From contig OZ024935.1 in assembly GCA_964017235.1 (NCBI GenBank), forward strand, positions 36,745,596 to 36,809,595: a stretch of 64,000 nt of DNA, in the 5' to 3' direction. This document shows, piece after piece, positions 8,235-50,970 of the stretch (position 1 is the stretch's first letter; the number at the start of each line of letters is the position of its first letter). Below the pieces are notes generated by a model. It worked only from the letters and a program-made list of their open reading frames with translations, had not been told where the DNA came from and ran no database searches. This stretch comes from Sabellastarte sp. h YS-2021 (Eukaryota; Annelida; Polychaeta; Sabellida; Sabellidae). The position numbers and the translations under genes are program-made.

Positions 8235-8352
8235 GAATCCAGGAAAAAAGGGGCCCAGGAAAAAAGGGACCTAGAAAAAAGGGGCCCAAGAAAAAAGGGG
8301 CCCAGGAAAAAAGGGGCCCACAGTTTTTGGAAAAGGGGAAAAAAGGCGCCCA
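8235..8352 (+). repeat. FB1 left arm: 16-bp tandem repeat
   Basis: Units read CCAGGAAAAAAGGGGC with one 15-bp unit. Copies differ by 1-2 bases (GGGAC, CTAG, CCAAG). The same order of variant units appears inverted in the right arm, so the arms were homogenised or duplicated as blocks. Confidence 0.85.
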
Positions 8353-8599
8353 GTATTTTTTTCTAATTTTTGTTCATGATTATGCCTTAAGATTTATTAA
8401 TATTACGTAATATGACTAGAAATTTCCTTCATGCAACAAACATTTAACAACTTTTGACAACAAACATTTAACAAATTTTTCAAACTTTATTATGTTTTAA
8501 CCTACTTTAAAGGCTTCAAATTTGTAATTGCATGCATTGAAGTGCGTGGGTAGATGCATTGAATTGCTTAGATTGTTTAATGGGGGCTATATGAAAGGG

Positions 8600-9645
8600 A
8601 TTGTATATGAAAATCCCCAGATTGAAAATCCCCGGATTGAAAATTCCCGGATTGAAAATCCCTGGAAATCTGCACACCCATAGAAAAACCCCAGATGGGG
8701 CTTAGTAAATCCCCAGATCAAAAATCCCTAATACAATACAATTGACAAATGCATTGTTACATTGTCTTTGTGTATGGTGTGGCTTCCAATTACTGTCATC
8801 TTCAAAATGATTTTGGCCCTTCCTTTTCCTTTTTGTTGTTCATTGATTAAATAAACCAGTTTTAACTGTGGTCTTTACATTGACAAATGCATTGTTATGT
8901 TGTGTTTGTCTTTGTCTATGATGTGGCTTCCAATTCCTGTCCTCTTCAAACCAATTGTATGGTACTCCCTTTTCTTTTTTATTGTTCATTGATTAAATAA
9001 ACCACTTTTAACTGTAGTCTTTAATCTACCTCTTCCAGGGATTGCATGTGGCTTCTAATTAACCATATTAGATTTGTAGCCCTCTTTGGATTGATGTATT
9101 AGAGAACTATTTTATAACTGTGTTCTTTAATCTACCTGTATGATGTGTGGCCCTAACTGTTAATTGCTATCAGGGAAAGTGGCTTTTATTTGTCCCATTG
9201 TCTATAGATAGATAGGCTGATTCTTTCTTTGATAACTGCTTAGGAAGGATGTTGAAAGACTAACTCAACATTTAAGCACTTTCATGTATGCTATGGAACC
9301 CATTCAAACACCTTTAAGGGTTGATAATATTACAGGCATCTTAAAGGAGCTTTTAAACCTACTCAGAAACTAATTCTATCAAAGGAAATGTTAACAGCAA
9401 TTTTTAAAAAGATGTGTTTTTAAATCATGTTAAAATCTTAATATTCAGTGCAGCAATATACCAAACCTGAATGTATGAAAAGTTCAGTAACTCCAAATAA
9501 AGTGTACCTTATCTTTTACTCTTACTTTTAGGGATTTTTGATCTGGGGATTTTCTAAGCCCCATCTGTGGATTTTCTATGGGTCTGTAGATTTCCAGGGA
9601 TTTTCCATCTGGGAATTTTCAATCTGTGGATTTTCAACGTACACC
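8600..9645. mobile_element. Foldback-like element FB2 with 15-bp tandem arm repeats, nested in FB1
   Basis: The left arm (8600-8732) has units of the type GAAAATCCCCAGATT, then CCAGATGGGGCTTAGTAAAT-like sequence. The right arm (about 9530-9645) repeats this inverted. ATATGAAAGGG (11 bp) flanks both sides (8589-8599 and 9646-9656). The sequence just outside is continuous with an 85-bp local duplication (9657-9765). A 9-11 bp duplication is typical of Mutator-like elements, but no transposase is present to confirm that. Confidence 0.8.
8739..9135 (+). repeat. Tandem duplication of about 140 bp inside FB2
   Basis: Two clear copies begin with TTGACAAATGCATTGTTA (near 8740 and 8880) and end with ATTGATTAAATAAACCA and TAACTGTGGTCTTTA-like blocks. 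A third, degraded copy ends near 9135 with TGTTCTTTAATCTACCT. Confidence 0.75.
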
Positions 9646-9925
9646 ATATGAAAGGGCCTTCAATTTTAAAATACAATCCAGAGTAGATGCATAGAATTGC
9701 CTAGATTGTTTGATGGGGGCTACTTAAAAGGTTCTTCAATTTTAAAATGCAATCCAGAGTGAATTTTGTATTCACTTAAATGTTACATGTTTGTTCTTAT
9801 TATGTGCTTATTGTACTGTATGTATAATATTGTACGTTCTTGTATCTTAATCAAAGTTGATTTGTTATATAAAACTAAATAAAAGTTGGTTGATATCACT
9901 AATGTTGTTTTATCAAAAATGAAAA

Positions 9926-10043
9926 GTGGGCCCCTTTTTTCCCCTTTTCCAAAAACTGTAGGCCCCTTTTTTCCAGGCCCCTTTTTTCTTGGGCCCTTTT
10001 TTTCTAGGTCCCTTTTTTCCTGGGCCCCTTTTTTCCGTGCAAC
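9926..10043 (-). repeat. FB1 right arm: inverted 16-bp tandem repeat
   Basis: The reverse complement of the left arm, unit by unit, including the variant GGGACCTAG unit and the AGTTTTTGGAAAAGGGG block. Confidence 0.85.
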
Positions 10044-10077
10044 GATGCCACATACCCTACAAGATTTGGTGTATCAT

Positions 10078-10505
10078 TTACACTAGAGGTGGTATAATTT
10101 GCGGTTATAGGTGTTGGGCTATACAGCTCTGTCCTTCAGCTACTGTGTGAGGTACGTATGCGAAGTTGTGACATAGTGGCAAAACATCCAATACCTCAAC
10201 TTACCTTATGTCGCCTTGTTACACCGAAAGATGATGAGTCACAGCCTTATATACACCATGGAGTACACCTTTAGTTACTGTAGAAGAAATTCATCTGTGC
10301 ATGCTCGCATTCATCTGCACATGCTCATGGTACCAAAGTCAGAGGCGGAAATTTTAAACATTTTAAAAGTTCTGTAGAATGCACCAGGTAATGGACGTTT
10401 GCCACTGTGTCATAAGGTTGCATACGAGCCTCAGACTACAGTTGAAAGACAGGGGTGTTTCACAAAATGCCTGTAACTGCGGTATACGTATCGTCTATTA
10501 GTCAT
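10078..10505 (-). mobile_element. MITE, related to the element at 14374-14895
   Basis: The left end (CACTAGAGGTGGTATAATTT then GCGGTTATAGG) and right end (GCCTGTAACTGCGGTATAC) are imperfect inverted repeats. Its interior read on the minus strand (CCATGAGCATGTGCAGA, TTTCGGTGTAACAAGGCGAC, TAAGTTGAGGTATTGGATG) matches the interior of the 14374 element. A related terminus (CATTCACACTGCAGGTGGTA) sits at 8161-8180, left of FB1. Confidence 0.65.
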
Positions 10506-11200: not shown

Positions 11201-11204
11201 GGTG

Positions 11205-11275
11205 TTCTTCTCAGGGTGTTGGAGTTTCAAGCAGAAGGTCCAGGGTTCAATCCTAACCAGTGAGTGATGGAGATA
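11205..11275 (+). mobile_element. Possible SINE head fragment
   Basis: A B-box-like CAGGGTTCAATCCTA follows a GGTGTTGGAGTTTCAAGC stretch at a spacing that would suit a degraded tRNA head. No cloverleaf can be drawn with confidence. Confidence 0.3.
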
Positions 11276-11302
11276 ATATCCTATAAAAATTTACTTTACA
11301 CA

Positions 11303-14373: not shown

Positions 14374-14895
14374 CAATTCACACTACAGGTGGTATTGCCC
14401 GCGGTCCTTGGATCACCGTCTGGCGTCAGTATGCAACCTTGCGAGTCAGTGGCGAACCGTCCATCACCTTGCAAGTCCTGTGTCAGTTTTAAACTGTTTA
14501 AAATTTACGTCTCTGAATTTGATACCATGAGCATGTGCAGACAATTTCGCACATGCGTGTATGAATTTCTAACTACAGTAACCGAAGGTTGTGGTCCTCA
14601 GTGTACATAATGTTGTGCTTCTGTCGTCTTTCGGTGTAATACGGCGACATAAGGTGAGTTAAGGTATTGGATGTTTCGCCGAAGGTGAATTAAGGTTAGT
14701 GAAGGTTGCTTCATGGTGACCAACGTTCTTTAGTTCTGTCATCTGACTGTTTTTGACAGCTAAAACACTGTGTCCAATCAGTGGCCGTTCGCCTGTTGTG
14801 TGAACAACTCACATGAAATGGGGTGACCTGGGAGGCGGTTCCAACCTCAAGAAAAACTTCTAACCGCAGGACGACCGCCTATAGTGTGAATGTGG
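14374..14895. mobile_element. MITE with CACACTAYAGGYGGT termini
   Basis: The left end ATTCACACTACAGGTGGTAT and the right end, read on the minus strand as ATTCACACTATAGGCGGTC, form an imperfect terminal repeat that continues through a GCGGT block. The interior is shared in inverted orientation with 10078-10505. Both are non-coding. Confidence 0.75.
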
Positions 14896-17240
14896 CATGA
14901 AGATCCAAATGGGAATTAAAACTAGGACACAAGAGTGTAGGAAGCAAGACTACCATTTGTGTCTTCACAAACATTATTATGGTGGTTTTTTTTATAAAAC
15001 TGTTGTAAACACACAGACAGACAACACCAATTAACATAAACTCCTTGGTGGAGATAACAAGAGAGCCTGTTGACAAGGTTACTGGATTGTTTTCCTCTTG
15101 GCAGTTTTTGGGGCCAAAGTGGCTGACTACAGAATACAATTGCCCTGACTTGTTTGACATTTTACAGAAGTTTTCCTTGACCACATTGATGCTAGTTTAT
15201 TAGCTTTAATTAGGGGTCCAGAGATGGTAAAGTGAGTGAGGTTAATAGAAAAAGGATACTGTACTGTATAAATGGAAATTCTAGCAAAAACTAAGTATCT
15301 CAGGTTTTTTTTCCAGAAATTTTTAGGAATAGGGTTGACTAATAGGCAGCCTCCAGTGAAGAGATTAATACAGATTTTAAATTTCTCTAGCAATTCATTT
15401 TTACTATCCAAGATCTTTAGGTAAATAATAAAACTTAATGTCCAGTAAAAGTTCCATTTACATAGCACATATTAGAATAACCAGAAATAGTAATATTAGA
15501 TGGAGTACAACAGAAAAAGAAAGAGTGTAGAGTCCTTTGGTTATAGTACAACTTTCTATGATTTAATTTTGTCAAAACCGCAATTATTATTTAGGAAATA
15601 CTGGTGGGGAAATGTCAATGCTCCTAAGATTTGGTGATATTTATTTTATGAAAGAAAAAGCATATCTTAATACTTAAAAGTCATCATTTTGGTGTTCTGA
15701 TATTGAGACATTAGAAAAAGTTAGGAAGAAACTAAAAACAAAAAAAAAACAAAAAAAAAACCCCAGTATTCATGAAAATATTTTAAATGTCAACTTTTAT
15801 CTTATATTAAACTTTTTTATTTTTTTTATATGGATGTTTTACTGACTTTTTGAATAAGAAATATTTGATACTGACACAGATAAGGTTCTAAAGGGGGATA
15901 AGTAGCCTCCTTAAAACTTGTTGTTTACTACTCCAAGGGGAAGTATCATATTATTGATGTATGTCTGAAGGTGCAAGTTTAAATGCGGGGCCCATGGTGG
16001 CAAATTGAATTCAGGATGGCAGATAAGTGGTGCTGCAATGTCCCAGTTGTACAGGCAATGAAACTGAAACTATTCATTGAATAGTAAAGTCCACAAATGT
16101 CACCGGTATCGGGTTAGAATATGAGTTTGATGACATTGAAAATACTAACATTAAATGTAATAAGATTTAATCATTTCCTTTAATGTCTCTATACTTTCAC
16201 ATTCTGAGGCACAGCAAAACAATATAAGAGGGGTGCTAAGTTGGTTAGACCCTACTAGATGGACAGGCAGTGTTGAAAAGGTAGGCTTTTAATACACTGT
16301 GCAGTATCTATCTGTGCAGCCTCATTTCTATCTCATCTGTAAATACCTCATCCCTCAAGAGGGCTTAATATAATTGTCATTTACGATTGTTGCCCAATTG
16401 TTAATAAAATATGTTTAAACTTAAGTAGTATACTGTGCAACAAAAGTAATAGATCAAAACAAAGGCATACAAATGTAGTCACAAAAATCAAAATGTTTGA
16501 AGAATTTCTCACAAGTTAGGAAAATGGAAAAGGGGGTTTCTTCACTGGGAAATTTTACATACTGTGACATGACATTTTTTATTTTATTCATTAATTAGGG
16601 AGGGTATTTATATGGTGAAATACTGTATGTGATTTAGAACTGTTATTAAAATCATATCAGAATATATACACTAACTCGCTCTTGAACTCGATGTTCAGAA
16701 CCCCTTCTACAAGAATGGGACAAGCTCTGCAGATATTTGATGATTTGGGAGATAATACATCTTGCTGTTGACACTTCATAAAGCTTTTGGGTTCACAATA
16801 AATGGGGCACCTTTATGAGTACATTAATAATAAGGTCCTGTAGATACATCATGTCTTATCTCAGCTTATTTGATTTTCATAAGAGATACAAAGTGTAGAT
16901 TCAGCTATTTGGTAAAAATAAAGGATTTCTCCTGGTATGCAGTGGAAAGTCTGACAGTGCAGTCAAATCGGTTTAGAAGGAAATGGCAACATTTCACATA
17001 AATTCATTTGTTATAAATAATTGTTGACAATTCTGAATTTACCAGTACTATTGCATGAATAGCAAAACATAAATTTGTCTTGAAACTTTCCAGTCCATCC
17101 CTTATAAGTAAAGCTTAGTCAAATGGACAAAAAACATCTAGAATTTAGGTGTAATTCTGCTGCATGTAGAGGTCTTTTTCTTGAACAACACATATAATAC
17201 TATTAAAAATCTTTATTGATTATCTGATTTCATTGAATAT
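14896..17240. other. No recognisable feature
   Basis: About 2.3 kb of AT-rich sequence. It includes an A-rich run at about 15739-15763, which could be a retroposon tail, but no element body can be recognised beside it. Confidence 0.4.
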
Positions 17241-17470
17241 ATAGAGTAAGAAATCTAAAATTCGCCAGGAATCTAAAATTCGCCACCTCTAAAACCTTAG
17301 TTAATTTTATGAAGAAAATGATGTTTTTGTCTAAAAATTGGTATTTTTCAGTTTAAAAAGCCTTAATTTACTATACATTCAACAAATCTCACCACAATTC
17401 ATTTATTTTATTAGTATTTTCACATGTGGCAAATTTCAGATATGTGGCGAATTTTAGATTTCTTACTCTA
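17241..17470 (-). mobile_element. Palindromic MITE (AATCTAAAATTCGCC family), copy 1
   Basis: Termini ATAGAGTAAGAAATCTAAAA and its inverse enclose a central stretch of about 150 bp. One terminus has the AATCTAAAATTCGCCA word twice in tandem, the other carries a variant. Relative to the copies at 21031, 34767 and 53176 it lies in the opposite orientation. TATA flanks would fit a TA target duplication, as in Tc1/mariner-type MITEs. Confidence 0.85.
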
Positions 17471-18800
17471 TATTAATATATTTTTAAAACAGATGTTGGC
17501 CATGGTGACACCCATCCAACTCTGAGCACTTGAATTTGTGATGAATCCAGACTGACTAGTGTGCACTGATTCCTTCCCAATCAATCAATCAATCAATTCA
17601 CCCCTCCAATATATCCACCATGTTATACGCTATAAAAATTGCTAAATTACACATCAAAACTAGGTAGATTATTTCTTCAGTCTTTGATTTTGGGAAGTTA
17701 AAATTTTAAATCTGTGTTACAGTGACTGTGTTTAAAATGTAGCAGAAATTTTGTGTTTCATCAGAGTGAGAAATTAGTTTCAGAAGTTTTATTCACTGTG
17801 GTCGGTTTTGTTGAAAGGGGCCTGTATTTACACACCCTCCATCTTTTTATTCAATGTGTTCTTATCCTGTTTTCACAGATGAAGTTGGTGTCCTATTTCC
17901 TAGAAAGGCATTGCCTTAATTGATAATGAAGCAGTCAAGTTACCCTCCTTACAATATAAATGTGAGTTTCCATATAGCCAACTGCCAATGACCAGTAGCC
18001 AATGCTAAATTACTGATTTTATATGAAGTGTTTCCCATGTAAAGTTTGACGGTTAAACAGTGTTCAGACTCATTCATGTGATAATGAAGTAAATACATCG
18101 ACCTCATTTTTTATAAGTGACATGTAACGTACTAGTAATATACATATTGAAACTGCAGTAAATATACAAGGGTTTACAAAGTATGCTGTCATGCAGATAC
18201 TATGTAACACATCAGGAGCTAGTTATACACAGTTATGTAGGTCTCAGCACTTAGCATTTGGGTGTTAGTGATTGGCATCATGAAGACATGTTCTAAGAGG
18301 AAAAAACTGAAAGGTTTGAAAAAATGCAGAAGTTTTTGCAAAGTAGGTGGGGGTTCTGAAAGCAGACCCTTTATATTCTGATCTGTAGCAAAGGGTGATG
18401 TTTTTATAAATAACATCATTGTTTAGGTTTGGGTCTGTGGTTGCTAATTAATGTCAAATATCCTATTTCTGGGCCTTTAATGAAGTGACTGCCTGATGAT
18501 TGTACCACTAACAAAAAAAGTCATATTCTGTGCATGCAACATATGAAGAAAATACTTATTTGAATACCATGCAATGAAATATAAATGTTAGGATCACTGG
18601 ATGTATTAGCATATATGAAACCATTTTTAATATGAAGAATTCTCTAACTTTCATCAGATTGCATCATGCAACACAGTACTCCATTTAAATTGAACACAAC
18701 TTCTTATTTTTCACTTTTTTCTTCTTCTTGAAAATACATGTATTGAGGTTTATTATATTGTGTTGTTCTGGTATGTACAGGCCTTGATACTGTGTCTTTG
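17471..18800. other. No recognisable feature; short (AATC)n
   Basis: AT-rich sequence with a microsatellite of five AATC units near 17577-17597. No exon is seen. Confidence 0.4.
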
Positions 18801-19010: not shown

Positions 19011-21030
19011 GTATCTTTGAATGGAACAAGAGTACAGAGTATAGCAACAGTCTTCTTTACTGATAAGTTTTTATACATCTTCAGAAAGATAGACATAATG
19101 TTAAATGAGATCTGACTGCATGCAGTTTTACTTCAATTTTTTTCAATTCCCCACAGTACTACAGTAGTGTTTTTGAAAAATGGTCCACATCTTCCAAGTT
19201 TGCAGATTTTATGCTTGGAATTTACTTGTTCATGCTCCTTGTCAAAATATGGGGAGAGAGGTGGGTAATTTGCGGTGTCGTGATCGTGAAAGTGAGACAG
19301 GTGTTTTAAGGAAGTTCTAAAGCTGGAAAATCTCTGGTCCCCTCAAAATAATGGTGGTTATTTAACATCTTCACCATTTATGAAATAAAGATGAAGTGCT
19401 GTGTTCTACTATCAGCCATATAGTGTACGCCTTGCATATTTTATGCTGAAATAATTGTCAATAGCCTTTAGCCAGGTGGAAGGTTAATGTAGTGACCAAA
19501 GGGAACAGCTCATTCATCCCAGCATGCTCACTGATACCATACAGGTTTGTCCTGGGGAGCATGTGAAAAGGTTATTTTGAAGAATTAATAAAGTATCAAT
19601 TGTTTTTTATCAGAAATATGGACATTTTATAAGTGGGAATAACCCATAAATGATAGATATCTTTTCACCTTCATCAAAGCTTTGGTCATATGTGTATTCA
19701 TTTAACATCAGATAGGTTATCATCATCAATTTTGTCCAGCAGTGTATTTAAAACAAATAAATATATAGAACATTATTTATCAGTAAAATTAGTAAAGTGG
19801 AATGTAGACATAAGTGCAACCAGTATTGAGATTATTAGTACTGTGAAATTGTTCAGAATCTTGGATTCGATGTGTGGTATCTGTGCAAGCTAGTTAACTT
19901 CAATCTAGTCTGATCATTGAACCAACATTTTCAAAACATAGTTAATATAAAGAAATTTAAGATAAAATCTTGACACTGTGTTGAAAATATAGTAAAAACA
20001 TAAAAGCTATAAATATTTTGGGAAAATTTCGGCATATTTTCAATAAAATGCAAAACCCTGTGGAAGAAAATGGTATCCCCATAAAGAAATGTTAATAATG
20101 ATGTGATTGATTTCCATATGTTTTGCTATATGTCTAAAATTCAGATGCAGATGTTTGACCCCTGACTTCGACTTCGTTTCGGGGCAGTCAACGAGTGATT
20201 TGTCAAACTTCTACAAACGGCGGTTATAGCATCAGCAAATGCTGTACTTTTATTGAAATATATATTTGACAAGTTAGTTTACTTTTCCCAGTTTTAGATG
20301 TTGTGTCTTGTTATTCCTTGAAACTTTTTTTCTGTCAGATTGTATCAAGACATGTACAAAAAACTGAAGAAAAATTTTAGGGGGGTAGGGGGCTAAAGTG
20401 CGTCTGAATGTGATAGATTTATTATTCCAGGTTCAACCTTTTAGATTTCATAAAATTTCAGGTGCAGAATTAATAAATGCAAGTTATTTTGTTTTTAGTT
20501 AGGGGTTTTATGTAGTAAATATTTTACATCTTATACAGTATATATAAAAACATAATTATCATCTTTAAAGAGTGATTAAAGGTGATAGATTTATCTATCT
20601 ACTGTAGAAAGTATGCATGCAACTCTGCACACCTGCAAAAAATAATTCAAATAACCCAAGTACATGTCATTTGTGCAAATTAATGTCCTGACACTGACAT
20701 CTTATTTGGCTTTACTGTGAAGAACTTAATATACGTGTATATATAAATATTCTTGAAAACAAGAAATTAAATCGTTCCTTATCTGGAACTTCCCACGGAT
20801 GAAGTAAAAATCTATTTCTTTTGTTATTAAAGTAAGAGAAATTTGCCCCAATATCTAAAATTCGCCAATGAGTTAACCCTGTTCTGTTTTTTGGACTTGT
20901 GGTAAATTCATGATTAGACATTGGTGACTTCTGTGATTACATTAGCCCTCTGATCACCCCTAAATGCAAATTTGGCACAAATTTTGATTATCTTGTAGTT
21001 TTTTTGATGTCCACTAGTTGCAAGGTTCAC
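19011..21030. other. No recognisable feature apart from a MITE fragment
   Basis: AT-rich sequence. At about 20846-20876, CCCCAATATCTAAAATTCGCCA looks like one terminus of the 17241-type MITE, without its partner. Nothing else is supported. Confidence 0.4.
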
Positions 21031-21267
21031 ATAGAGTAAGGAATCTAAAATTCCCCACATATCTGAAATTCGCCACCTGTGGAAATACTAATAAATTAAA
21101 TTAATTAAGCTGGGATTTGTTGAATGTATAATAATAAATTTAGGCTTTTTGAACTGAAAGTACCAAGTTTAATAAGACAAAACATTAATTCTCTTCATAG
21201 AATTAACAAAGGTTTTTAGAGGTGGAGAATTATAGATTCCTGGCAAATTTTAGATTCCTTACTCTAC
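21031..21267 (+). mobile_element. Palindromic MITE (AATCTAAAATTCGCC family), copy 2
   Basis: It begins ATAGAGTAAGGAATCTAAAA and ends with the inverse TTTTAGATTCCTTACTCTA. It is the most diverged of the four full copies (for example TTCCCCAC for TTCGCCAC). Confidence 0.8.
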
Positions 21268-22015
21268 TATGGGAACTTTCACATTTCTTACTCTGTCAAG
21301 GCTTTCCAGTTCTCCTTGTTAAAAGTTTTTTTAAATTTTGTGACAGGATCCTATAATATGCTATAATATATTCCATATTCATATGGTAAATTTATATGTT
21401 GCTACAAAAAGTTAAAACTATGTCATTTGCCAGACAGTTTTTTAATTGTTTTTTGTCTGACCATTAAAATTTGCTGTTTTCTTTTTTATGTCCTTCTGTG
21501 TTGTTTTTATGTAAATCTGATTTTGCAATAATTTGTAAGTAAAAAATCCCCCGAAAGCACCTTGCCTTCAGGCACTTTTTACAAGTCGATGCCTGTCACC
21601 GATAACAGACAGTCACTAATTTCAAAGTTTATCACGTCTTATTATGACCGCCGATATGAGAGGTTTAGTGAGTGCCAGTAGAGGTTTCAGTAAGCACCAG
21701 TCAGAACTCGACACTGTGCACAGCTAGATGTCCCAGATGTGTGTCTGTATCTTTGGAGAAAAACCCTCAGGCTTAAAGGGTAGGGACTATTTACCCCTTC
21801 AAATAGTTCGGTAGACTTACTGTGCCTTCAGACTAGTGATTCAACTTGACACAGATTGAAGCAGCTTTGGATTAGGTGTGAACGCTCACAGTCCAGATTG
21901 AATAGGGTAACCCTACTCAAGAGGTGGATTGCAGCAGATTGGTTCAACCCCCTTTGTAGTGTGAACCCTCTCAGTCCGGTATGAGAAGGTTTGAGGGTAT
22001 TGATATCATTACTCC
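21268..22015. other. Unassigned sequence left of LINE-C
   Basis: It contains a GC-richer block (about 21590-22000) with the repeated words GTGTGAAC and CAGTCC. Parts resemble 25870-25980, right of the LINE. This could be another old element that LINE-C entered. I cannot delimit it. Confidence 0.3.
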
Positions 22016-34766: not shown

Positions 34767-34997
34767 ATAGAGTAAGAAATCTAAAATTCGCCACATATCT
34801 GAAATTCGCCACATGTCAAAATACTAATAAAATAAATGAACTGTGGTGAGATTTGTTGACTGTATAGTAAATTAAGGCTTTTTGAACTGAAAAATACCAA
34901 TTTTTAGACAAAAACATCATTTTCTTCATAAAATTAACTAAGGTTTTAGAGGTGGCGAATTTTAGATTCCTGGCGAATTTTAGATTTCTTACTCTAT
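34767..34997 (+). mobile_element. Palindromic MITE (AATCTAAAATTCGCC family), copy 3
   Basis: It begins ATAGAGTAAGAAATCTAAAA and ends with the inverse TTAGATTTCTTACTCTAT. It is very close to the copy at 53176-53406 over its whole length, which suggests relatively recent spread. Confidence 0.85.
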
Positions 34998-36387
34998 ATG
35001 ATTGGTATGTGGGTGTAACTAGTTAAAATATGGCTCTTACAGATATTTACAAAGTTTAGGCTCACAACGGATCATCGTTTCCAGCCCGAAGTGATAAAAA
35101 ATTCATTCATTATAGGCTATGGTATATGACACTATCTGAATGAAAAAGCCACAGAATCTGTTGGGTGTCAGTCATCCATGGGGTGGGTAATCTACTTAAT
35201 GGAAACATGTACTTAAACCAATTTCAACTTATTGGAATTTTTATTTTTCTCATATTACAACCACTTGGCTGTTGTACAGGTTTTCTTTTCATTAATTTAC
35301 ATAAACAGTAAAATATATAAAAGGACCAAAATTTGCCACAATATTTATGAAATTGGCTCTGGGCTTCAAAATTAAATGGTAGCAGGAAATGATGTAAATT
35401 GAAGTTGTGCATAAAACATTCGGTAAATGGTTTACAGTTACAGCAAAAATACTAAAATTGATAAGAATATTGCTCGAGTCAAGGTTCAAATAATTAGCAT
35501 TTTACCTCAGTGGTAATTTTACATATTGGGGCAATTAGATGAACTATTCCTAAACTCTTTAAATGTTTATTTTTTCCAAACTCATAAACTTGATAAAATT
35601 GCATAGTTAAGGTTTATGGAAAGATTTCAAATACCTATTTCAAGCCAAAATACAAGGCTAGGAGGGTATAGTTAATTTTGTGGTTAAATATCCATTTGCT
35701 AGAATTAGTGAGATTAAGTTGTAAATGAATAGAAAAAGATGTGAAGATATTTAACATGACTAGATACAGATCTCCACACAATAAAGATTTCAGCTCTAAT
35801 CTTCTCTTTCATTTATGTACATATATACCGTACATGTTAAACCTATTACCTGGGGCTCACAATGTCATCTGGTTACAATAAATACTAGTAAAATAGATTC
35901 AGTAAATTTAGGTTAGAGTTGAAAATATCAAATTTATAACAGCGTGTGAAATTGATCCTTGGGGTTAATTCTTCAAATGAAGTAACTAGAAACAAACCCA
36001 CTTTTTGTAATAAATAAGGTAATTGGCCTTAAAAATAGTCAGAAAAATTCAGAATTTGTTAAGAATAACCCAAGTTACAAAGCAAAATAAGGAGGCTCTG
36101 CTCATATGCAAAAATCAAAAATGAGGTGACGGCGAGGAAAAGTTAATATCTGTTTAACCAGGAATTATAAATACATGTACCAGGATATCATTGGAAAAGT
36201 TTCTTTGACCCAATATATCATATATTTAAAACAGATATCTACTCAATAAGTGCAAAAATATGGGAAAAGAATTCAGAAAAAAATCCATAAAACTTATGTT
36301 CATAACACTATCATATATTGTTCCTCCTCAATAGATAGGCAAATCATCATTGTTATCCATTTCATATAGATGACATACTGTTGAATT
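34998..36387. other. No recognisable feature
   Basis: AT-rich non-coding sequence. Confidence 0.4.
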
Positions 36388-36700
36388 ATTGTATCCACTT
36401 GCTTATTATTGGTCCAAGAGGTTTGGGATGGTGAACCAACCTATATGAAATCATGGACTGGGAATCTTGTGGTCAAACTAGGATAGCCAAACTTTAAAGT
36501 GCTTTTTATAACTTGCTTATTATTGGTCCTAGAGGTTTGCAATGTGAAACCAACTCATAGGAAATCATGGGCTGGGAATCTTCTGATGTTAGATTTAACC
36601 ACTGGCCCCCATTCAAGGTCAAACGATGGTTCACTGGCTTTGGTGAGTTGTCTTTCCAGTGGATACAAATTTGCATCGGTTCTCCGATGTGTAGGTCTAG
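36388..36700 (+). mobile_element. Helitron-like element HL, internally deleted copy B
   Basis: The left end ATTGTATCCAC is shared with copies A and D but is followed at once by a tandem-unit fragment (TTGCTTATTATTGGTCC). It ends with a near-perfect hairpin GCATCGG-TTCT-CCGATG and CTAG, followed by TT. It holds about two 147-bp-type units. Confidence 0.75.
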
Positions 36701-39085
36701 TTTTTGTCTGAGATATGGCATGGCCCTTGTATATTAGCTGAGGCTTTATTTAGGGACCACACGGTATATTGCTGTATCTGCATGTTGTTCTCAGCTGTGG
36801 AGTGAGTTGGAGCAATAAAATTACAATCAACTGCAAGCTTTGTGTGTTTATGTGTTGAGTCTTGGGGAGTGTTGTACTCATTATTTTACACTGGGCAAAC
36901 AGAATATAAGGCATATGGTTCCAGTTTGTGGAGACATTTGTTGTGTATAAGTGCAACTGGTTTTATATTTAAAAACAAGCTGGATATTTTTTTTTCTATG
37001 AATAATTAAAGGGAATTAAGGAAATCAAAAATTTTGCTTATTAAAATCACCTGGGGCATATGCATGTATACTGAAACAATGTCATAATTTTCTGCCAACA
37101 GGATAATTTAACGAAAAGGCTGAAGAGTTATGTCCACATTGAAACTAATAAGACCTGTCTGTCTTTGCTGTCAATGAATTTGCAACTCCATTCATGATGC
37201 TGCTAGACTGTAAAATTAGCATTTTGATTGTATTCTAAAGCTTTGGTCACACCCATCCTTACAGTTATATCTATACATATCTGATTTCCACTTCATGACC
37301 TTGTCCTTATAGAAAAGAGACCTTGTGTTTGAAAAACGAGCTCCTCAATATAACCAACCCTGTCGCCCCCTCCTCACTTCCAGCATGTGTAGTGTAGTAC
37401 AGCTCATGACAGAGGTCAGAAAGTTTTTAAAAAAAGTTTTTAAAAAGTGACCCCCAAATGAAAATCGCTTTCCTGGTTGAGCTACCTGAAATGTGTTGTG
37501 CCCAAATGCAAATCTCACCAAAGAGCCCCAAATGCATCCTATCCAAATACGAGGCAGGTGGAACCACAACCAAAGGGAGATGAGCCCATTTGGCTTGTGA
37601 CCCCAATTATGAAAAGATAGGACCTAGTTATAAAGTGCTTACAATTATTCTTTAACAGTTATGTTTATTAGGATTTTAGATTTACCTGTGGAAGTAATTT
37701 ATATTCTCAGTACATAGTACATGGGTACTAGATTTTACATGACAAATGACTACAGAAAGGAATTAGGGTAGCTTTCAAACAGAATAAACATTAAAGCAAT
37801 TTATGGGGAGTCTTTAGATAAAGTTCTATTTTTACAGGAGTAACTGAGCAGACAGTGTATTCCAGTATTTCCTTGAGTAGAGCAGCGAGTGATAGCTACA
37901 AGATTAAACAGTCTGGTTTGATAAATTCTCCAAATACCTCTTGAGTTTATCTCAAACTCAAACTCTCAGATCGTCGTGTACCTTACTATAATATATTGAA
38001 AACATAGAAAGTTAAGCAGGATATTTAACTTAACCACTGTCAACTAAATGAAACTTAATGGTTAGGAGGGTGTAGTATTCCTCAGAAAGATATTTATTTC
38101 CAGATAAATATTATTTGAGATTAAGAATGGCTTATAGACTGCAATTTGTGCTGCAGAATACATGGATTCTACATAGTTTTATTTGGAAAAAACAACAATA
38201 TGTCAAATTCCAATCAAAGTTCCACTCAAGAGTTGTTGATGTTTATTGATAAAACCAAAGTGTCATGAAATACAGTTAAATTTGTAATTTAGGTACATAG
38301 GCTTACTTCACTTGTATAGAACATCCACAGTGATAGGACATAAGGTACTTGTAATGTATGAAAAATTGAGACGAGTTTGAGCTTAAGTTTAACTTCGAAT
38401 AGACAATGTCTGGCTGCCAGAAAATTTCTTGTGAAATTTTCAGATGAGGCAAAGCAGGAGAGTGAGTGATAAATGCTGAAAGCAAATAAATGACCTTGCA
38501 GATGAGGAGTTATCAGGATGCTGTAAACCACTAGTCAAGTCATATGGATCTTTCACAGTCAGCCTTTAAAATGGCGCAGTCCTTTGATTCACTGCAATGT
38601 GTATAATTGGTTCTGAAGAAAGTTCAAACTGGTTGCATTAGTTCTAGAAGGTATAATTGCTTCAGAGGTTAATGGTTTACTTAGGAGGGTCAATACAAGA
38701 AAACTGATTGCAGCTAAGGCTGCCAAACCACCTATATATGACTGTGTACCTGTACAGGTGTATATGTGGATACGGATTTATATCTACAGAATGACCTATT
38801 CAAATTCTAAGTTCTAACCAGCATTTATAGCACTTAATCTTGGCAGAAAAGCAGCTCCGAGTCACGACAAACAAGAACATATTCTAATGTCAAATGAGAC
38901 AGTGTAATAGGTCAGTACCACAGACAACAGAGATGCAGGAATAAAAGTTTTCGTATGCATGCCTGCATGTATGTTGCAGCATACTCTGACATAATATTGT
39001 GTATATGTTGATTTCAGTCACACCTTCAATCACATCAGGACTGTCATTTCAATATATGTGTGCATAGTTAAAGACCTGAAGACTA
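36701..39085. other. No recognisable feature
   Basis: About 2.4 kb with no exon or repeat I can support. The open frames here are short and featureless. Confidence 0.4.
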
Positions 39086-39585
39086 TTTATTACCTCCGCC
39101 AAGGAGGTTATGTTTTCACCTGGGTTTCTCTGTCCATCTGTTTGTTTGCTGTGAACAAGATAACTCAATAACTTATGGACGGATTTTGATAAAATTTTCA
39201 GGATATGTCTGAAATGGTAAAAGGAAGACGTGATTAGATTTTGGGGAGTGATTCGGATCATTGTCTGGATCTTCTGAATCCATGAAATTTAATTTTTAAA
39301 GAAAGATAGCTCAAAAACTTATGGAGGGATTTTGATGAAATTTTCAGGATATGTGAGAAATTGGTAAAGAAAGAAGTGATTACATTTTGGGAGTGATCTG
39401 GATCACCGTCTGGATCTTCTGGATCCCTGAATTCTTTAAAGGAATATAATTCGAAAAGTTATGGATGGATTCCGATGAAATTTTCAGGACATGTCCAAAA
39501 TGGGACAAGGAAGAAGTGATTAGATTTTGGGTGTGATCCGGATCGTTGTCTGGATCTTCTGGATCCAGGTAATTTTTTAGTATCA
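39086..39585 (+). mobile_element. CCTCCGCC-type Helitron-like element with three tandem units
   Basis: The head ATTACCTCCGCCAAGGAGGT forms a hairpin (CCTCC/GGAGG) and is followed by GTTTTCACCTGGGTTTCTCT. Three units of about 140-150 bp follow, each with AACTTATGGA, TTTTGATGAAATTTTCAGGA-like and GATCTGGATC-like blocks. No clear 3' terminal hairpin is seen, so the right end may be truncated. From general knowledge this repeat type is widespread in animals and non-coding. Confidence 0.75.
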
Positions 39586-40085: not shown

Positions 40086-41795
40086 AATTCAATTGTATTT
40101 ACCAGTGGCAAATCAGAAAAAAATCTCAATATAGCTCTTACAAACTAACAAATAGACAAATATTAAGCCAAACATACACTGCTTCATGCAAGTAGTTATC
40201 GGCAGTTCCAATCGTGAAAGAAAGTATATAAATGATCATCTATTTTATATAGTGTGGTCTGTTGTTTATAGCATTTTGTTGGCATGTGACAAAGCATTTC
40301 CTTTTCAATCTATTAAGTTTTGTAAAAGCCTTTCTATAAAACAAAAGTCAAGGTTGTGTTTAACTCTATAAATTTGTATTCTCTAATACATATCAAAGTA
40401 TCAAATTACTGAGTTAACTATGGTCCAAGCAAAATTCCTTTGATATACAGTGCTTATCTTTTAAAGCTATAATTGCTTATAATTACTTTGTCTGAAACCC
40501 TTAAATCAAACACCCACAAGAAGTAACATGAAAATTATGCCATTGTGTCTGTGTGATGTAATTAACACATCTTAGATCTAAAGTACTAGAGGAAATGAGA
40601 CAAGGTAAATCACTCTATGGTTGTTATTTTCTCTGCAAGCTATGGGTAATTAAGTTAAATAGGAAAGACATAGCTGCCAGGTTATATTATAAGACACAAA
40701 AGAGGTACCCATGTCTACAGATCTTGCTAATTCCCAAATGGCTGGAGTATTCCCTGTGGGCGAAACAAGGTGATATTAGTAATGTAGAAAACACAAGGTA
40801 TTGAAATGTAGTGGATAAGCGGAGAACACAAGGTATTGAAATTTAGTAGATAAAACACAAAGAATAGAGTTTAAGAATGGAAAATTAGAAATTCATCTAC
40901 TGAGGCTGTAAAGAAGTTTGTATATAGGAGGATAGACTTAAATCAGCAGATTCTGTCAAGTACTGTTCATGTGAGGATTACAAAATTTACAAAACAAAAA
41001 AAGATGAATGAGTCAAGGTTCATGCAGAGAATATACTGTTTTGTATTCTAGTGAAAGAAAAAATCTAAGGCAAAAATAGACTGTTTTACAGTAGACTGTA
41101 CAACTGGAAGCTCTAATATCAACAGTATTCGCTTCTACTTATGGATAAATTCCATTTATACTGAGAAAAATGCCAGGACCTCTGAACCAATTCCACTTAC
41201 ACTAATTTTTGATATACACTGTTTCTACGAATATAGAATGTACTTTATTTCAATTGTAAAACATTTATATGTGTACAATGTGACTTCATCAAAAGTTGCG
41301 GCGGTTGTGAGATTAACATAAAAAATTTGACATGCAGTTAATGTTTGTATGTCCTAAGTCAATTTCCAATCTGCTAATTTGCCAAATTACAAGTAGCTGG
41401 GTTGTGCTCCTGGGCTAATGAAATGCTGTACACAGTCAAAATGTTAAACCACAGGTTATGATGAGAGGAAACAATGGAATTAGTCCGTCCAGTAAAAGAA
41501 TTACTTTTCAGTACTCAGTGTAACAAAGTTCAAGTTATATTATCTAAATAAACTGGAAGTATAGTATGTATGTTGGAATGAGAAAAGGTTTGTGAAGCAG
41601 AATGAAGCATTTTAGTATAAAAAATACAAAGTGGCTAACGAACAGGGACCCGGTCAATAGAAGGCGTTACTATCGAATGGGTCCCGTTTATTCTTTGTAC
41701 AGATCTGTATGTAAGCATGCTTCATCTCGCCCTTTAATTTCATTGGTTCCTTACCTAATTGGTTTACTAAGTGGGTACAAATTGCTGAAATTGTC
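40086..41795. other. No recognisable feature
   Basis: AT-rich sequence. The open frames (for example 40595-40804) have no domain. Confidence 0.4.
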
Positions 41796-41996
41796 AGTGC
41801 TTATTAACTCGCTTATTATTGATCCTAGAAGTTTACAGTACGAAACCAACTCATACGAAATCTTGGGCTAGGAATTTTCTGATGTTAGATTTGACCTTGG
41901 GCCCCTCCTTCAAGGTCAAACAGTGGTTCACTGGCTTTGGTGAGTTGTCTTTTCGGTGGATACAAATTTGCATCGGTTTGCGATGCGTAGGTCTAG
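41796..41996 (+). mobile_element. Helitron-like element HL, 5'-truncated copy C
   Basis: One 147-bp-type unit, then the conserved 3' end (GGTGAGTTGTCTTTTCGGTG, GCATCGG..CGATGC hairpin, GTAGGTCTAG) followed by TT. The head is absent. Confidence 0.75.
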
Positions 41997-42104
41997 TTAA
42001 TACTTGCTACACAAAATGTAGTAAATTGCATTCTGACGTGATTACTGGGGGGAGGGGGGGATTAAATTAGCAATTCAGACATTAACATATTCTGACGTGA
42101 TTAC

Positions 42105-42656: not shown

Positions 42657-43030
42657 CAAAACATTGCATTATTGCCTTGGTCATACAGAATCCAGGGGTA
42701 TGACTTCACCCAGGAAGCCTGAAATTCCCTTTTTCTGGTATTTTTTTTTCATATATCCCTTTCCTCTGAAATTTTTGGCTTTTTTTTTGGATTGGAGCCT
42801 AGGTTTGTCAGGTATCTGTCCATGTCAGTTGCTCATGAACCAAGCATATATCAGGTGATTTGGTAGAATTTTTATGAAATAAAAGCGCCAAAAGCAATAC
42901 TGGAAGCAATGAAAATGAACGAGATTTCAACTTTAAATCTCGAGGTTTGCGAGATTTCCGCGAGATTTCCTATCGCGACACCAACAACAATAAAATCTTA
43001 TTTTAAAGTGTTTTTGCAAAAAAAAAACGT

Positions 43031-44594
43031 ATATATGTTGTATTGAATGTAGATAACTGTTGAATGTATAGATTCAATGGCCCAAGTGTTGAATGTATAC
43101 ATTCAATGGCCTAGGTGTTGAATGTACACATTCAACAGCAAATAGCCATTGAATGTGTACATTCCACAGTTTGGCTGTGGAATGTGTACATTCAACAGTT
43201 ATGATCATTGAATGTGTATAAGTTCTTTAAATATTATGATTTTTATAAGTAGTCCCTAAACAGTTTAATATTTATGTAAAACTTATTTAGTTTAATATTT
43301 ATATTGTATAAATTAATGATGCAATGTTAATACTATTATAAAACCTATTTAATTTAATATTATATTGTATGAATTAATGATGCATTTTTACTAATATAAA
43401 AGTTAAATGTAGTTATGAGTTTATTAGTATAGTGTATTATAGCCTTAAATATTTTGTCAATATTTATAAAACATGGCTTAATTATTGTTTAAATATTTTG
43501 TAAAGGATAAAAAAGAACAAGAAATATTAATCTATTTTCCAATTATATAATCACAATGAACCCCAATGCTCTTGTGTTTCTTGGTATGGTAAGACTAATT
43601 GCAATTGCACCTCTGTGATCCTCTTTCATGGATTAACTGTAAACATTCACACACAAATTTGGAGAGCATTAAAGAGGTACTCAGGTGACAACTTTTTCTG
43701 TAATCAGTGATCAAAAGATTACTCAGGCTTGAACTGTCTCTCTTTGTTCTTTGCTTTGATTATCACAGCAATTGTTTTAATGTGTGTAGATTAGGGGGTA
43801 AATCGTTTGGCTTTGTGGGTATCGATATTGAATGTAAAAATATTTCAATATCGGGCGATATCGGGGGGGGGTTCATATTGTCTACCAAATAGTCCGAATT
43901 CGGGAAACTGAAAACGTTTTATTTTAGTGTTTCCCGAACCGCTAACAGGAAGCGAAATGAATCAAAGCAAAACAATGCAGTTTTCATCAAAAACGCATTG
44001 AAAACTTCAAAAATGTGAGATAAAAGTGTACAATGTCTTCAGATTTTTGCTTTACTTCGAGTATTAACAGTGTAAGTTTACAGTTTTACTTAAAATGGCG
44101 ATATTGAAATACATGTTTAGATCTCGATATCGGGAGTCCAGTTCCAAAACAATAAATATCGGCAATATCGATAAACAATTTACCCACTAGTGTAGATTAA
44201 AGGGAACTCTTTATGTTTATAAAGTCTTTAATCCTACAAGATTCTTCTTCTTTGAGCCCCTGCTAACACTTCAATAGAAGACTTTTTCTTTTGATCATCC
44301 CTACAACTACTATAAATAGTGATTTGATTTTAGAAAATACTCAGTGTATGTTAAAGTGTACATAAGTCTTCATACTTCCAATCAACTTATCAACTATAAA
44401 TTATTTCCACACTCCATGCCCTGAGCCATTGAATGTACACATTCAACAGTTTCACCCATTGAATCTATACATTCCACAGCTGAGCCATTGAATGTATACA
44501 TTCAACAGTTTGCCCATTGAATCTATACATTCAACGGTTTGACCCGTTGAATGTATACATTCAACAGTTATCTACATTCAATACAACATATATA
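43031..44594. mobile_element. Foldback-like element FB4, copy 1, arms of 18-bp palindromes
   Basis: The termini TATATGTTGTATTGAATGTA and its inverse lead into arms (43031-43222 and about 44424-44594). The arms carry about six copies each of the self-complementary word TTGAATGTATACATTCAA and variants, spaced by about 12 bp. The interior matches FB4 copy 2 (61333-62499) in opposite orientation nearly base for base, apart from the insertion at 43792-44189. Non-coding. Confidence 0.85.
43792..44189. mobile_element. hAT-like MITE with TAGNGGGTAAAT termini inside FB4 copy 1
   Basis: GTGTAGAT flanks it (43784-43791 and 44190-44197). Termini are TAGGGGGTAAATCGTTT and, on the minus strand, TAGTGGGTAAATTGTTTATC. 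FB4 copy 2 lacks it, giving a near-empty site at about 61735-61750. It contains ATATCGATATTG-like palindromic words and an interior of about 80 bp shared with 11420-11500. Confidence 0.85.
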
Positions 44595-44804
44595 CAGCAA
44601 TAACAAATAAAATATATTTTGTTTTAAAGTATTTGCCATCCATCTAACCCTTACAGTTCTTTTGCAGAACGTTTTTCAATGGGCGATAATCGGGGATTTT
44701 CGACAGTCCGTCGGACCTGTAAGTACTAAAACTCGGCGGTCCTGCTGCAATATTGGCGGTCGCGGACCCGCGGGACGGCGTTGAGTTCGAACACTGACCT
44801 TAGA

Positions 44805-48020: not shown

Positions 48021-48024
48021 GGTG

Positions 48025-48186
48025 CACGGAAAAGTGCCCTGCTAGAAGACTGCCCTCATAGAAAAGTGCCCTCCTAGAAAAGTGCCCTCCTAGAAGACTG
48101 CCCTCCTAGAAAAGTGCCCTCCTAGAAGACTGCCATCCTAGAAAAGTGCCCTCCTTTTGAAGGGCTGGAAAGGTGCCCTCCTTTTC
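48025..48186 (+). repeat. FB3 left arm: eight 16-bp units of two types
   Basis: Units A (AAAAGTGCCCTCCTAG) and B (AAGACTGCCCTCCTAG) alternate, with single-base variants. A GGGCTGGAAAGGTGCCC stretch closes the arm. Confidence 0.85.
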
Positions 48187-48255
48187 TCAAATAATACACC
48201 ATAAAATATTTTATAAGCATTTTAGTAAGCATTTTAAAGACATTTAATTCAAATA

Positions 48256-50364
48256 ATTGTATCCACCGGAAGCATCCGGTGGATACTTTGGTTTGGCGTC
48301 CGCTATGCCGCCGCCGCCGCGCGTAGAGAGATTTTCGGCGTTAACGCTCTAAGAGGAAAACAACAGCAGCTAGGTTTCACCAAATTTGCAGGATATCTTC
48401 ATTGGGGGGTAAGCTTCTCTGGGAAGGAAAATAGCCTCATTCTGAAAAACAAGATGGGCGCCACAGGCATTTCTTTGAAAATAATGTACATTTTTCTACT
48501 GGCTGTTCCTCATAGGTAGAAGGTTGAATCTCTTCATAGGTGATATGTATGACACATATACATGTCCTCTATAACCTTGCACACATTTGACCTTGAAGCT
48601 CCTAATTCAAGGTCATCCACGGAGTGCTGAAGTAACCCACATAGCGGACTTTAAAAGTGCCTATATCTCCCTTATTATTGGTCCTAGAGGTTTGCAATGT
48701 GAAGCCAACCTATAGGAAATCATGTGCTACGAATCTTCTGATGTGGTCACATTTGACCTTGGACCCCTCCTTCAAGGTCAAACGAGGATAGCCAAACTTA
48801 TAAGTGCTTATAACTCGCTTATTATCGATCCTAGAGGTTTGGGATGGTAAACCAACATATAGGAAATCATGGGCTGGGAATCTTTTGGCGTGGTCGGATT
48901 TGACCTTGGGCCCCTCCTTCAAGGTCAAACGAGGACAGCCAAACTTATAAGTGCTTATAACTCGCTTATTATCGATCCTAGAGGTTTGGGATGGTAAACC
49001 AACATATAGGAAATCATGGGCTAGGAATCTTTTGGCGTGGTCGGATTTGACCTTGGGCCCCTCCTTCAAGGTCAAACGAGGACAGCCAAACTTAAAAGTG
49101 CTCGCTTATTATTGGTCCTAGAGGTTTGGGATGGTAAACCAACCTATAGGAAATCATGGGCTGGGAATCTTTTGGTGTGGTCGGATTTGACCTTGGGCCC
49201 CTACCTCAAGGTCAAACGAGGATAGCCAAAGGTAAAAGTGCCTATAACTCGCTTATTATTGGTCGTAGAGGTTTGGGATGGTAAACCAACATATAGAAAA
49301 TCATGGGCTGGGAATCTTCTGGTGAGGTCGGATTTGACCTTGGGCCCCTCCTTCAAGGTCAAACGATGACAGCCAAACTTAAAAGTGCTTATAACTCGCT
49401 TATTATTGGTCCTAGAGGTTTGGGATGGTAAACCAGCATATAGAAAATCATGGGCTGGGAATCTTCTGGTGTGGTCGGTTTTGACCTTAAGCCCCTCCTT
49501 CAAGGTCAAATGAGGACAGCCAAACCTAAAAGTGCTTACAACTCGCTTATTATTGGTCCTAGAGGTTTGGGATGATAAACCAACCTATAGGAAATCATGG
49601 GCGGGGAATCTTTTGCCATGGTCAGATTTGACCTTGGGCCCCTCCTTCAAGGTCAAGTGTGAGGACAGCCAAACTTAAAAGTGCTTATAACTCGCTTATT
49701 ATTGGTCCTAGAGGTTTGGGATGGTAAACCAGCATATAGAAAATCATGAGCTGAGAATCTTCTGGTGTGGTCGGATTTGACCTTGGGCCCCTCCTTCAAG
49801 GTGAAATGAGGATAGCCAAAGGTAAAAGTGCTTATAACTCGCTTATTATTGGTCCTAGAGGTTTGGGATGGTAAACCAACACATTGGAAATCATGGGCTG
49901 GGAATCTTCTGGTGTGGTTGGATTTGACCTTGGGCCCCTCCTTCAAGGTCAAATGAGGACAGTCAAACTTAAAAGTGCTTATAACTCGCTTATTATTGGT
50001 CCTAGAGGTTTGGGATGGTAAACCAACATATAGGAAATCATCTGCTGGGAATCTTCTGGTGTGGTCGGATTTGACCTTGGGCCCCACGGTCAAGGTCAAA
50101 TGAGGACAGCCAAACTAAAAAGTGCTTATAACTCTCTTATTATTGGTCCTAGATGTTTGGGATGGTAAACCAACATATAGGAAATCATGCACTGGGAATC
50201 TTCTGGTGTGGTCGGATTTGACCTTGGGCCCCCCTTCAAGGTCAAATGAGGATAGCCAAACTTAAAAGTGCTTATAACTCGCTTGTTATTGGTACTAGAG
50301 GTTTTGGTGCATTGTCTTTACGGTGGATACAATTTGCATCGGTTCTCCGATGCGCTAGGTCTAG
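48256..50364 (+). mobile_element. Helitron-like element HL, copy A, with eleven 147-bp units
   Basis: The head ATTGTATCCACCGGAAGCAT then CCGGTGGATACTTTGG forms a strong hairpin (ATCCACCGG/CCGGTGGAT). About 390 bp of unique sequence follows, then a tandem array, then the 3' block TTACGGTGGATACAATTTGC, hairpin GCATCGGTTCTCCGATGC and the end CTAG. TT follows, as in all four copies. A 3' hairpin a few bases from CTAG is the Helitron signature. Tandem arrays, subterminal inverted words and a T-T target suit the non-autonomous Helentron type. No Rep or helicase is encoded. Confidence 0.75.
48655..50300 (+). repeat. Tandem array of 147-bp units
   Basis: Measured at the CGCTT-TATTATTGG junction, the unit starts are spaced 147, 147, 140, 147, 147, 147, 149, 147, 147, 147 and 146 bp. 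Each unit has GGTCCTAGAGGTTTGGGATG, GGAAATCATGGGCTGGGAAT and TTGACCTTGGGCCCCTCC with CAAGGTCAAA, an internal inverted pair (TTTGACCTTG/CAAGGTCAAA). Confidence 0.9.
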
Positions 50365-50744
50365 TTATAACATGATTTTGACAACATATTTATGATAATA
50401 TACAAGTAAGCACATATAGGAAGTAAGCACTAATTTCACTATCAACATGGTTATGGTGATAATGTTGGAGCCCAACTTAGGAGTCAGGATCCTGAATTGG
50501 GTAGCCTATCTTGAGATAGGCCAACCTATGTTGAGATGGGCTAGAACATATCAGCCCAGCTTAAGATAATAAAATTCAAGAAATATTTTTATGGGCAATA
50601 TAATATAAACTATTACAGGGACAGAGTCTTGGAACAATAAAGGAATTAAGACTGATCCTATCAGTGCATAATGAGGTAAAGAAAAGAAGTAACATTTAAG
50701 TAGAAAAATAAGTAAATAATATCACTTGGAAATTATACATGATT

Positions 50745-50825
50745 AGTTAGCGCACTGAGTTCCCCTTGGGGAAGATATTGCGCCTCCAAAGCAGTAGATT
50801 TAGATTTTTATAGATTTAGATTTCA
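50745..50825 (+). mobile_element. LINE-B 3' end fragment
   Basis: TTAGCGCACTGAGTTCCCCT, then GAAGATATTGCGCC and CAAAGCAGTAGATTTAGATT match the 3' end of the insertion at 6314-6526. The tail is TAGATTT-like. It lies inside FB3. Confidence 0.75.
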
Positions 50826-50970
50826 ATTTCAAAAATAAAAGCATCATCTGAGAAAAAGAGGGCAGTTATCCACCCCTTCAAACTTGAAGGAGGGCAGTCT
50901 TCTAGGAGGGCACTTTTCTAGGAGGGCACCTTTCTAGGAGGGCACTTTTCTAGGAGGGCACTTTTCATGG

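Follow-up and report, generated by a model that had tools for sequence, protein, structure and literature searches.

Foldback elements with different tandem words in a Sabellastarte genome probably represent one kind of MULE transposon

Four inverted elements, named FB1 to FB4, in a stretch of the Sabellastarte sp. genome raise the question of whether transposons that look unrelated to each other arrived separately at a common plan of long arms made of short tandem words, or inherited it. The stretch, hereafter the window, comprises 64,000 nucleotides and corresponds to positions 36745596-36809595 on the forward strand of its contig, in a genome of 1.79 Gb and 647 contigs. Comparisons of ends, target duplications and arm layouts make it highly likely that FB1, FB2 and FB3 belong as non-autonomous families to one cut-and-paste kind, the foldback Phantom/Muta-like Mutator-like elements (MULEs), and FB4 seems to be something other than this kind. 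Eight inverted pairs (arms 60 bp or longer, within 4 kb, E ≤1e-5) were found in the window, as well as 15 tandem-array rows with a period of 12-32 and a score of at least 90 (overlapping rows counted), compared with none of either in every one of 20 dinucleotide shuffles. The initial annotation had described all four as inverted elements made of 15-18 bp words, which holds for FB1-FB3, with words of 15-16 bp, and not for FB4, whose unit is 29-30 bp.

Genome queries showed that FB1 and FB3 are multicopy families, with 40 matches for FB1 (40 of 341 candidates scored) and 51 for FB3 (40 of 1101 candidates scored). Tips were read in 19 FB1 and 20 FB3 fetched stretches plus both window copies, allowing at most one mismatch in the B tip and at most two in the A tip. 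In these stretches the words start about 7 bp inside the true element end, and outside the words both families share asymmetric 7-bp tips, the A tip being mostly GGTGC[A/G]C and the B tip GAATCCA. The B tip was exact in 20/20 of those found in the 20 FB1 stretches and in 13/15 of those found in the 21 FB3 stretches, which gives 33/35 combined. The 15 A tips of FB1 were GGTGCGC (5), GGTGCGT (3), GGTGCAC (2) and five others, including one word mistaken for a tip, and the 16 of FB3 were GGTGCAC (9), GGTGCAT (3), GGTGTAC (2) and two others. Target duplications, scored at no more than one mismatch over 8 or 9 bp and only in elements with both tips paired, were present in 11 of 13 FB1 elements (8 bp in seven, 9 bp in four; mean 0.9 with shuffled pairing) and in 7 of 12 FB3 elements (shuffled mean 0.66). 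A later, unshuffled set of 20 FB3 stretches, four of them longer versions of places already sampled, gave 8 of 11. The pattern GAATCCANGAAAA occurred 948 times genome-wide, compared with 231 times for the reversed control. FB1 and FB3 both show a feature of Phantom/Muta/Tm1-type foldback MULEs, asymmetric motifs at the termini lying outside an inverted array of short tandem repeats, and both have target duplications of the 8-10 bp class, the window copy of FB3 excepted. The hAT superfamily, raised by the 8-bp duplications, was rejected, since 9-bp duplications prevail in FB3 and the coding relatives read are MULEs. The elements had been regarded as unrelated in sequence, a view that fails for FB1 and FB3 because they have the same, mostly matching asymmetric tips and duplication length, and very probably fails for FB2 as well; FB4 does not fit with them.

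A genome search for the MULE domain, in which 150 of 633 candidates were scored and seven loci (L069-L075) were read, further identified coding relatives with like ends. Three coding families, with ends and duplications read by eye, combine GGTG-N-AC / GAAT tips with the FB1-FB3 layout around three different words; FLYWCH and MULE domains occur together in L069 and L071, and MULE alone in L070. On either side of the ORF (open reading frame) of L069 stand inverted arrays whose 15-bp word is GACGTTTCGGCC plus 3, the words of L071 are GGAACTTTGCCCTTC (array word written GGAACTTTGCCCTTCA), and those of L070 are GGAAAAAATGCCTCC (array word written GGAAAAAATGCCTCCT). A second copy of the L070 family, L074, shows one arm within the stretch and has a protein 96% identical to that of L070. 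The L069, L070 and L071 proteins are 41-50% identical to one another, and in the single pair L069 and L071 the FLYWCH domains are 35% and the MULE domains 49% identical. Because these coding families match FB1-FB3 in tips and layout despite other words, all of them can be placed in one transposon kind. A single transposase kind with repeated terminal words, a possibility that the initial annotation had proposed checking, is supported for FB1-FB3, whose tips and 8-11 bp duplications match the three coding families, and not for FB4. The assignment to the Phantom/Muta/Tm1 group is a putative one, made by ends, duplications, layout and the domain make-up of the coding relatives. Over the 6 kb read, two ZSWIM/FAR1-type MULEs, L072 and L073, had no tandem-word arms around their ORFs; L073 carries a plain inverted repeat of 53 bp. 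Beside the ZSWIM-type MULE at L072 lies a small inverted element (L072:227-1100) whose word, AAAAAACCCCACC, is 14-15 bp long; it has a skipped slot (step 30), by eye GAACAAATAG on both flanks, and tips unlike GGTG/GAAT. When MULE positions were compared by eye with 100 of the 948 tip positions, those on contig C1 and at the beginning of C2, no pair was less than 10 kb apart.

The arms share one layout. Reading inward from the end, the tip is followed by three to eight words at 15-16 steps, then by a longer step and a single last word. Across families with different words, the first copy lies at a distance of 7-10 bp from the tip, and the number of words differs between arms and between copies. 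The skipped slot was present in all families compared (FB1-FB3 and L069-L071). Its long step measured 32 in both arms of FB1, L070 and L071 and also in the B arm of FB3, whose A arm has 27; both arms of L069 have 30, and both arms of FB2 have 29, with a further word 22 on. Across copies, the long step was 32 in 15 and 31 in 4 of 19 FB1 B arms, and in 29 FB3 B arms it was 32 in 22, 36 in one and 127 in one, with no further word in five. The corresponding row for FB1 A arms (97 'arms' from 19 stretches) was discarded because the loose tip pattern also hit words; the 41 FB3 A arms came from 38 stretches, including the overlapping L013/L065 and L022/L066, and a few are possibly spurious. A skipped slot of strictly two periods was rejected as a general rule, as 34/41 FB3 A arms have a step of 27. 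An A-run followed by G or C, originally pointed out in three of the words, is indeed present in FB1-FB3, and also in L070; it does not unite the group, because the L069 and L071 words differ.

FB2, which is nested in FB1, has arms with three or four copies of a 15-bp word followed by additional spaced words. ATATGAAAGGG is present on both sides of it, so that the duplication may be 8-11 bp long, in keeping with the 8-10 bp target duplications of foldback MULEs. The insertion site is uninterrupted in 13/19 aligned sister FB1 copies, with ATATGAAAGG exact in eight of those and variants in the rest. If the A tip is GGTGTAC, identical to that of the coding family L071, and the duplication is taken as 10 bp, the B tip is GATTGTA; one diverged FB2 copy, in L005, starts GATTGCA. 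As judged from these sequences, FB2 very probably shares its tips and duplication length with FB1 and FB3, and its B tip is likely to be related to the GAATCCA-type B tips. Four other FB1 copies (L030, L032, L033 and L034) hold FB2 at the same position, and FB2 sequence is present in L037, where the left junction is lost; FB1 and its internal FB2 have therefore spread as one unit. Another FB1 copy, L031, resembles the window copy at 96% as far as the FB2 insertion point and continues into different, unrelated sequence.

Table 1. Features of the foldback elements, their nested insertions and other repeats in the window, and coding MULE relatives in the same genome
Feature	Position	Strand	Description
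FB1 target duplication, left	8227..8234	.	GATGCCAC; 8/8 identical to right copy
FB1 B tip	8235..8241	+	GAATCCA; exact in all B tips found, window included
FB1 left arm	8242..8350	+	five 16-bp words GGAAAAAAGGGGCCCA, skipped slot, one word; steps 16,15,16,16,32
FB2 target duplication, left	8589..8598	.	ATATGAAAGG; repeated stretch 11 bp, so 8-11 bp possible
FB2	8599..9645	+	inside FB1; 15-bp words GAAAATCCCCGGATT; A tip GGTGTAC at right end, minus strand
FB2 target duplication, right	9646..9655	.	second copy of ATATGAAAGG stretch
FB1 right arm	9929..10036	-	inverted words; steps 16,15,16,15,32
FB1 A tip	10037..10043	-	GTTGCAC in window copy; sister copies mostly GGTGC[A/G][C/T]
FB1 target duplication, right	10044..10051	.	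GATGCCAC
FB1, whole	8235-10043		each arm a 16-bp word x5 plus one
18-bp-word element, four copies	17239-17473, 21027-21271, 34764-35000, 53173-53409		about 235 bp; inverted
FB4 copy 1	43029..44595	+	symmetric inverted arms; 29-30 bp units holding a ~20-bp palindrome TGTTGAATGTATACATTCAACA
FB3 A tip	48021..48027	+	GGTGCAC; read in window and sister copies
FB3 left arm	48029..48181	+	eight 16-bp words GAAAAGTGCCCTCCTA, another word 27 bp further
Helentron-like (HINE) insertion in FB3	48258..50364, limits approximate	+	5' inverted repeat GTATCCACCGG..CCGGTGGATAC
Helentron-like insertion, tandem array	48651-50304	+	11 copies of a 147-bp repeat
FB3 right arm	50857..50966	-	inverted words; steps 16,16,16,16,32
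FB3 B tip	50968..50974	-	GAATCCA; window copy without matching target duplication (1/9 bases identical)
FB3, whole	48021-50974		16-bp word, eight copies in one arm and five in the other, plus one each
FB4 copy 2	61334..62501	-	99% identical to copy 1, inverted, without copy 1's insertion
L069			487-aa (amino acid) ORF; FLYWCH E 8.8e-12, MULE E 1.3e-11; tips GGTGGAC/GAATGTA; duplication CATATTTAG
L070			422-aa ORF; MULE; tips GGTGCAC/GAATCCG; duplication GCATTTAG
L071			497-aa ORF; FLYWCH + MULE; tips GGTGTAC/GAATCCC; duplication CTTGGGGGA

The centres of the elements, previously described as non-coding, turned out to consist partly of other elements, namely FB2 within FB1 and a Helentron-like element within FB3. 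By inspection, this insertion shows Helentron-associated features, including subterminal inverted repeats, a central tandem array, a 3' palindrome and no target duplication, and most of the FB3 centre is this nested element. Its 3' part contains a repeat, CGGTGGATAC, a palindrome, GCATCGGTTCTCCGATGC, and a terminal CTAG, and FB3 is continuous across the insertion point in 12/20 stretches (L009-L028, best six hits per stretch). Similarly, the passages on the Cg_HINE Helentrons of the Pacific oyster describe subterminal inverted repeats, a central array with monomers of 140-180 bp, a range that includes 147 bp, a 3' palindrome, and insertion at TT without duplication (PMC7492417); the two are likened by description and not by sequence, and the present insertion happens to sit within FB3. 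Other copies of the 147-bp repeat with the Helentron-like 3' part are located at 36397-36705, 41788-41998 and 63203-63493. Four long stretches (L065-L068) were also fetched, and when an FB3 parent was sought by eye among the ORFs of three of them (L065, L066 and L068), no MULE was found; L066 contained reverse-transcriptase-like ORFs, and L068 recombinase-like and reverse-transcriptase-like ORFs, as judged by eye. The FB3 copy at L066:5095-8953 is 3.86 kb long with an 8-bp duplication, and the reverse-transcriptase-like ORFs inside it are probably a nested retrotransposon.

The word of FB4 had been read as a self-complementary 18-mer, which is replaced here by a 29-30 bp unit with a palindrome of about 20 bp. 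Both FB4 copies in the window have symmetric TATATGTTGTATTGAATG ends and, by eye, neither GGTG/GAAT asymmetric tips nor an 8-10 bp target duplication. An insertion of about 400 bp in copy 1 (43791-44190) has the ends GGGGGTAAAT / ACTAGTGGGTAAAT, with GTAGATTA on both sides, and the look by eye of a short hAT-like element. Four copies of a further inverted element, absent from the initial annotation, are built of an 18-bp word (AATCTAAAATTCGCCA plus 2) with symmetric TAGAGTAAG ends, and by eye show neither GGTG/GAAT tips nor an 8-10 bp duplication, nor clearly any long target duplication. FB4 or this 18-bp-word element may have a TA duplication. The window also contains a 140-bp tandem repeat in about three copies (39157-39574), a tandem array with a 29-bp unit, CAACAATGTCCAAAGCATCCTACCCTTAA, and several higher orders (57405-57625), and an inverted pair 4 kb apart and 78% alike (10178-10425 and 14429-14680), possibly the ends of another transposon.

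Several observations weigh against placing FB1-FB3 in a single MULE kind with exchangeable words. None of the seven MULE loci read carries the FB1, FB2 or FB3 word, and FB1-FB3 are linked to MULEs by their tips, duplication length and layout. The initial annotation had named a different parent for each element, with ordinary short termini, as the outcome that would refute it; this was not what we found, as the coding relatives read have complex termini. No FLYWCH domain was found in the ORF of L070, and a more distant MULE, L075, has a 14-bp array that may or may not belong with its ORF. Tips at both ends went undetected in 7/20 FB1 and 9/21 FB3 stretches, partly from short stretches. Duplications within the mismatch limit were lacking in 2/13 FB1 pairs and in 8/23 FB3 pairs in all, and in the window copy of FB3 the flanks compared were identical at 1/9 bases. 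The B tip of FB2 was picked among possible ends, given the ambiguity of its 8-11 bp duplication. The long step of the 41 FB3 A arms was 27 in 34, 29 in one and 32 in one, and was absent in five. The words of the six families agree at 90 positions compared with 62.5 after shuffling (P 0.0001, post hoc), so that the differing words may partly be old relatives; in a four-family subset the identities were 30 compared with 24.5 shuffled (P 0.12), and the likeness of the skipped slots among the six families was weak and also post hoc (89 identities compared with 67.2 shuffled, P 0.0035).

Convergence, in which four unrelated transposon lineages separately evolved tandem-word arms, is consistent with the window BLAST comparison, which aligns none of FB1, FB2, FB3 and FB4 with another, and with the different construction of FB4, and foldback ends are reported from unrelated superfamilies, such as Galileo with its P-element transposase (PMC3169594). 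However, the 7-bp tips of FB1 and FB3 agree at both ends and are placed with the same asymmetry, with nearly all B tips exact, and like tips recur together with the skipped slot in three coding MULE families. Convergence is therefore rejected for FB1 and FB3, for which common descent of the ends is a sufficient explanation, so that the convergent use of terminal words originally proposed is not needed; for the four elements as a whole we consider it very improbable. The words might instead be passive slippage products, minisatellites close to transposon ends that play no part in transposition, and the variation of word number by arm and copy would agree with this; the same variation is the one observation here that bears on a special word-amplifying mechanism, as originally suggested. 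The layout is nevertheless stereotyped across families with different words, from the distance of the first word to the skipped slot and the last word, and the two ZSWIM-type MULEs of the same genome were read without such arms, which makes slippage an improbable account. It is about equally improbable that FB4 is another member of the FB1-FB3 kind with altered tips: its inverted tandem plan is alike and a 30-bp unit would equal two 15-bp periods, but its symmetric ends are kept in both copies, and the tips and duplications of that kind were not seen.

The FB1-FB3 kind, as a set of foldback MULEs, was compared with known systems through the passages available. Tm1, from root-knot nematodes, is a Mutator/Foldback family (Gross and Williamson 2011, PMC3169594), which is described as having asymmetric 7-bp end motifs, A1/A2, outside the inverted repeat with GGA adjoining, a variable count of tandem words of about 14 bp followed by motif D and then one word, duplications of 8-10 bp, mostly 9, a 496-aa FLYWCH+MULE transposase, and copies that are mostly non-coding and resemble MITEs (miniature inverted-repeat transposable elements). 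It differs in host phylum and in tip and word sequences, and its account gives one word type with small species differences, unlike the several sibling word types found together here (PMC3169594). The 14 Muta families of MULEs in Aedes aegypti, 13 of them with a FLYWCH finger, are likewise reported to have 8-9 bp duplications, and 10/12 of the families with long terminal inverted repeats (TIRs) have subterminal tandem repeats of 9-15 bp (PMC5225508). Muta1, termed a type 2 Foldback and active in yeast, contains a 12-bp repeat x9 with 3-4 bp spacers, equal to a 15-16 bp period; its tip is a 10-bp imperfect palindrome, unlike those described here, and the passages compared do not describe tips common to families with different words (PMC5225508). 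Phantom MULEs are given a FLYWCH+MULE transposase in some members, an 8-10 bp duplication and TIRs of 18-613 bp; their table row names no Mollusca, unlike the MULE-Cg and MULE-Mollusca rows, and 'tandem' is absent from the text (PMC6446971). The 39 curated consensus elements of bivalve MULEs (PMC10294476) may include the present families. In the literature searched, no description of foldback MULEs in molluscs was recognised. Presumably the sea-urchin TU elements are a likely relative of the FB1-FB3 kind, although the literature search found nothing on them.

In a possible mechanism, cleavage by the transposase would occur at the tips and lead to a staggered insertion, while the N-terminal zinc-finger part of the enzyme would grip the words, which are putative transposase binding sites. 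By simple arithmetic, words repeated every 15-16 bp are about 1.5 helical turns apart, which would place adjacent words on opposite faces of the helix. When the DNA-binding part changes in a lineage, the entire array may switch to a new word as the tips stay, and sibling families would look unrelated for this reason. Tips and words may thus evolve at different speeds since different parts of the protein would read them, and the FLYWCH and MULE identities of L069 and L071 give a hint of this. Tentatively, and with less than even confidence, we propose that the ends evolve in two parts, with the catalytic tips GGTGNAC / GAATNNN shared and the word array, in a fixed layout of n words, a skipped slot and one word at a spacing near 1.5 turns, swapped whole together with a change of the DNA-binding finger. 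Nested insertion fills the centres, as with FB2 in FB1 and the Helentron-like element in FB3, and FB1 carrying FB2 has itself spread.

Similarity searches call these families unrelated, as the ground they have in common is little beyond about 7 bp per tip and the layout. Four odd repeats would thereby be turned into one understood kind and one exception, and the nested composite of FB1 carrying FB2 shows how such composites spread. If words and transposase fingers do change in step, one genome would hold a natural series of matched finger and word pairs, from which a FLYWCH recognition code might be read.

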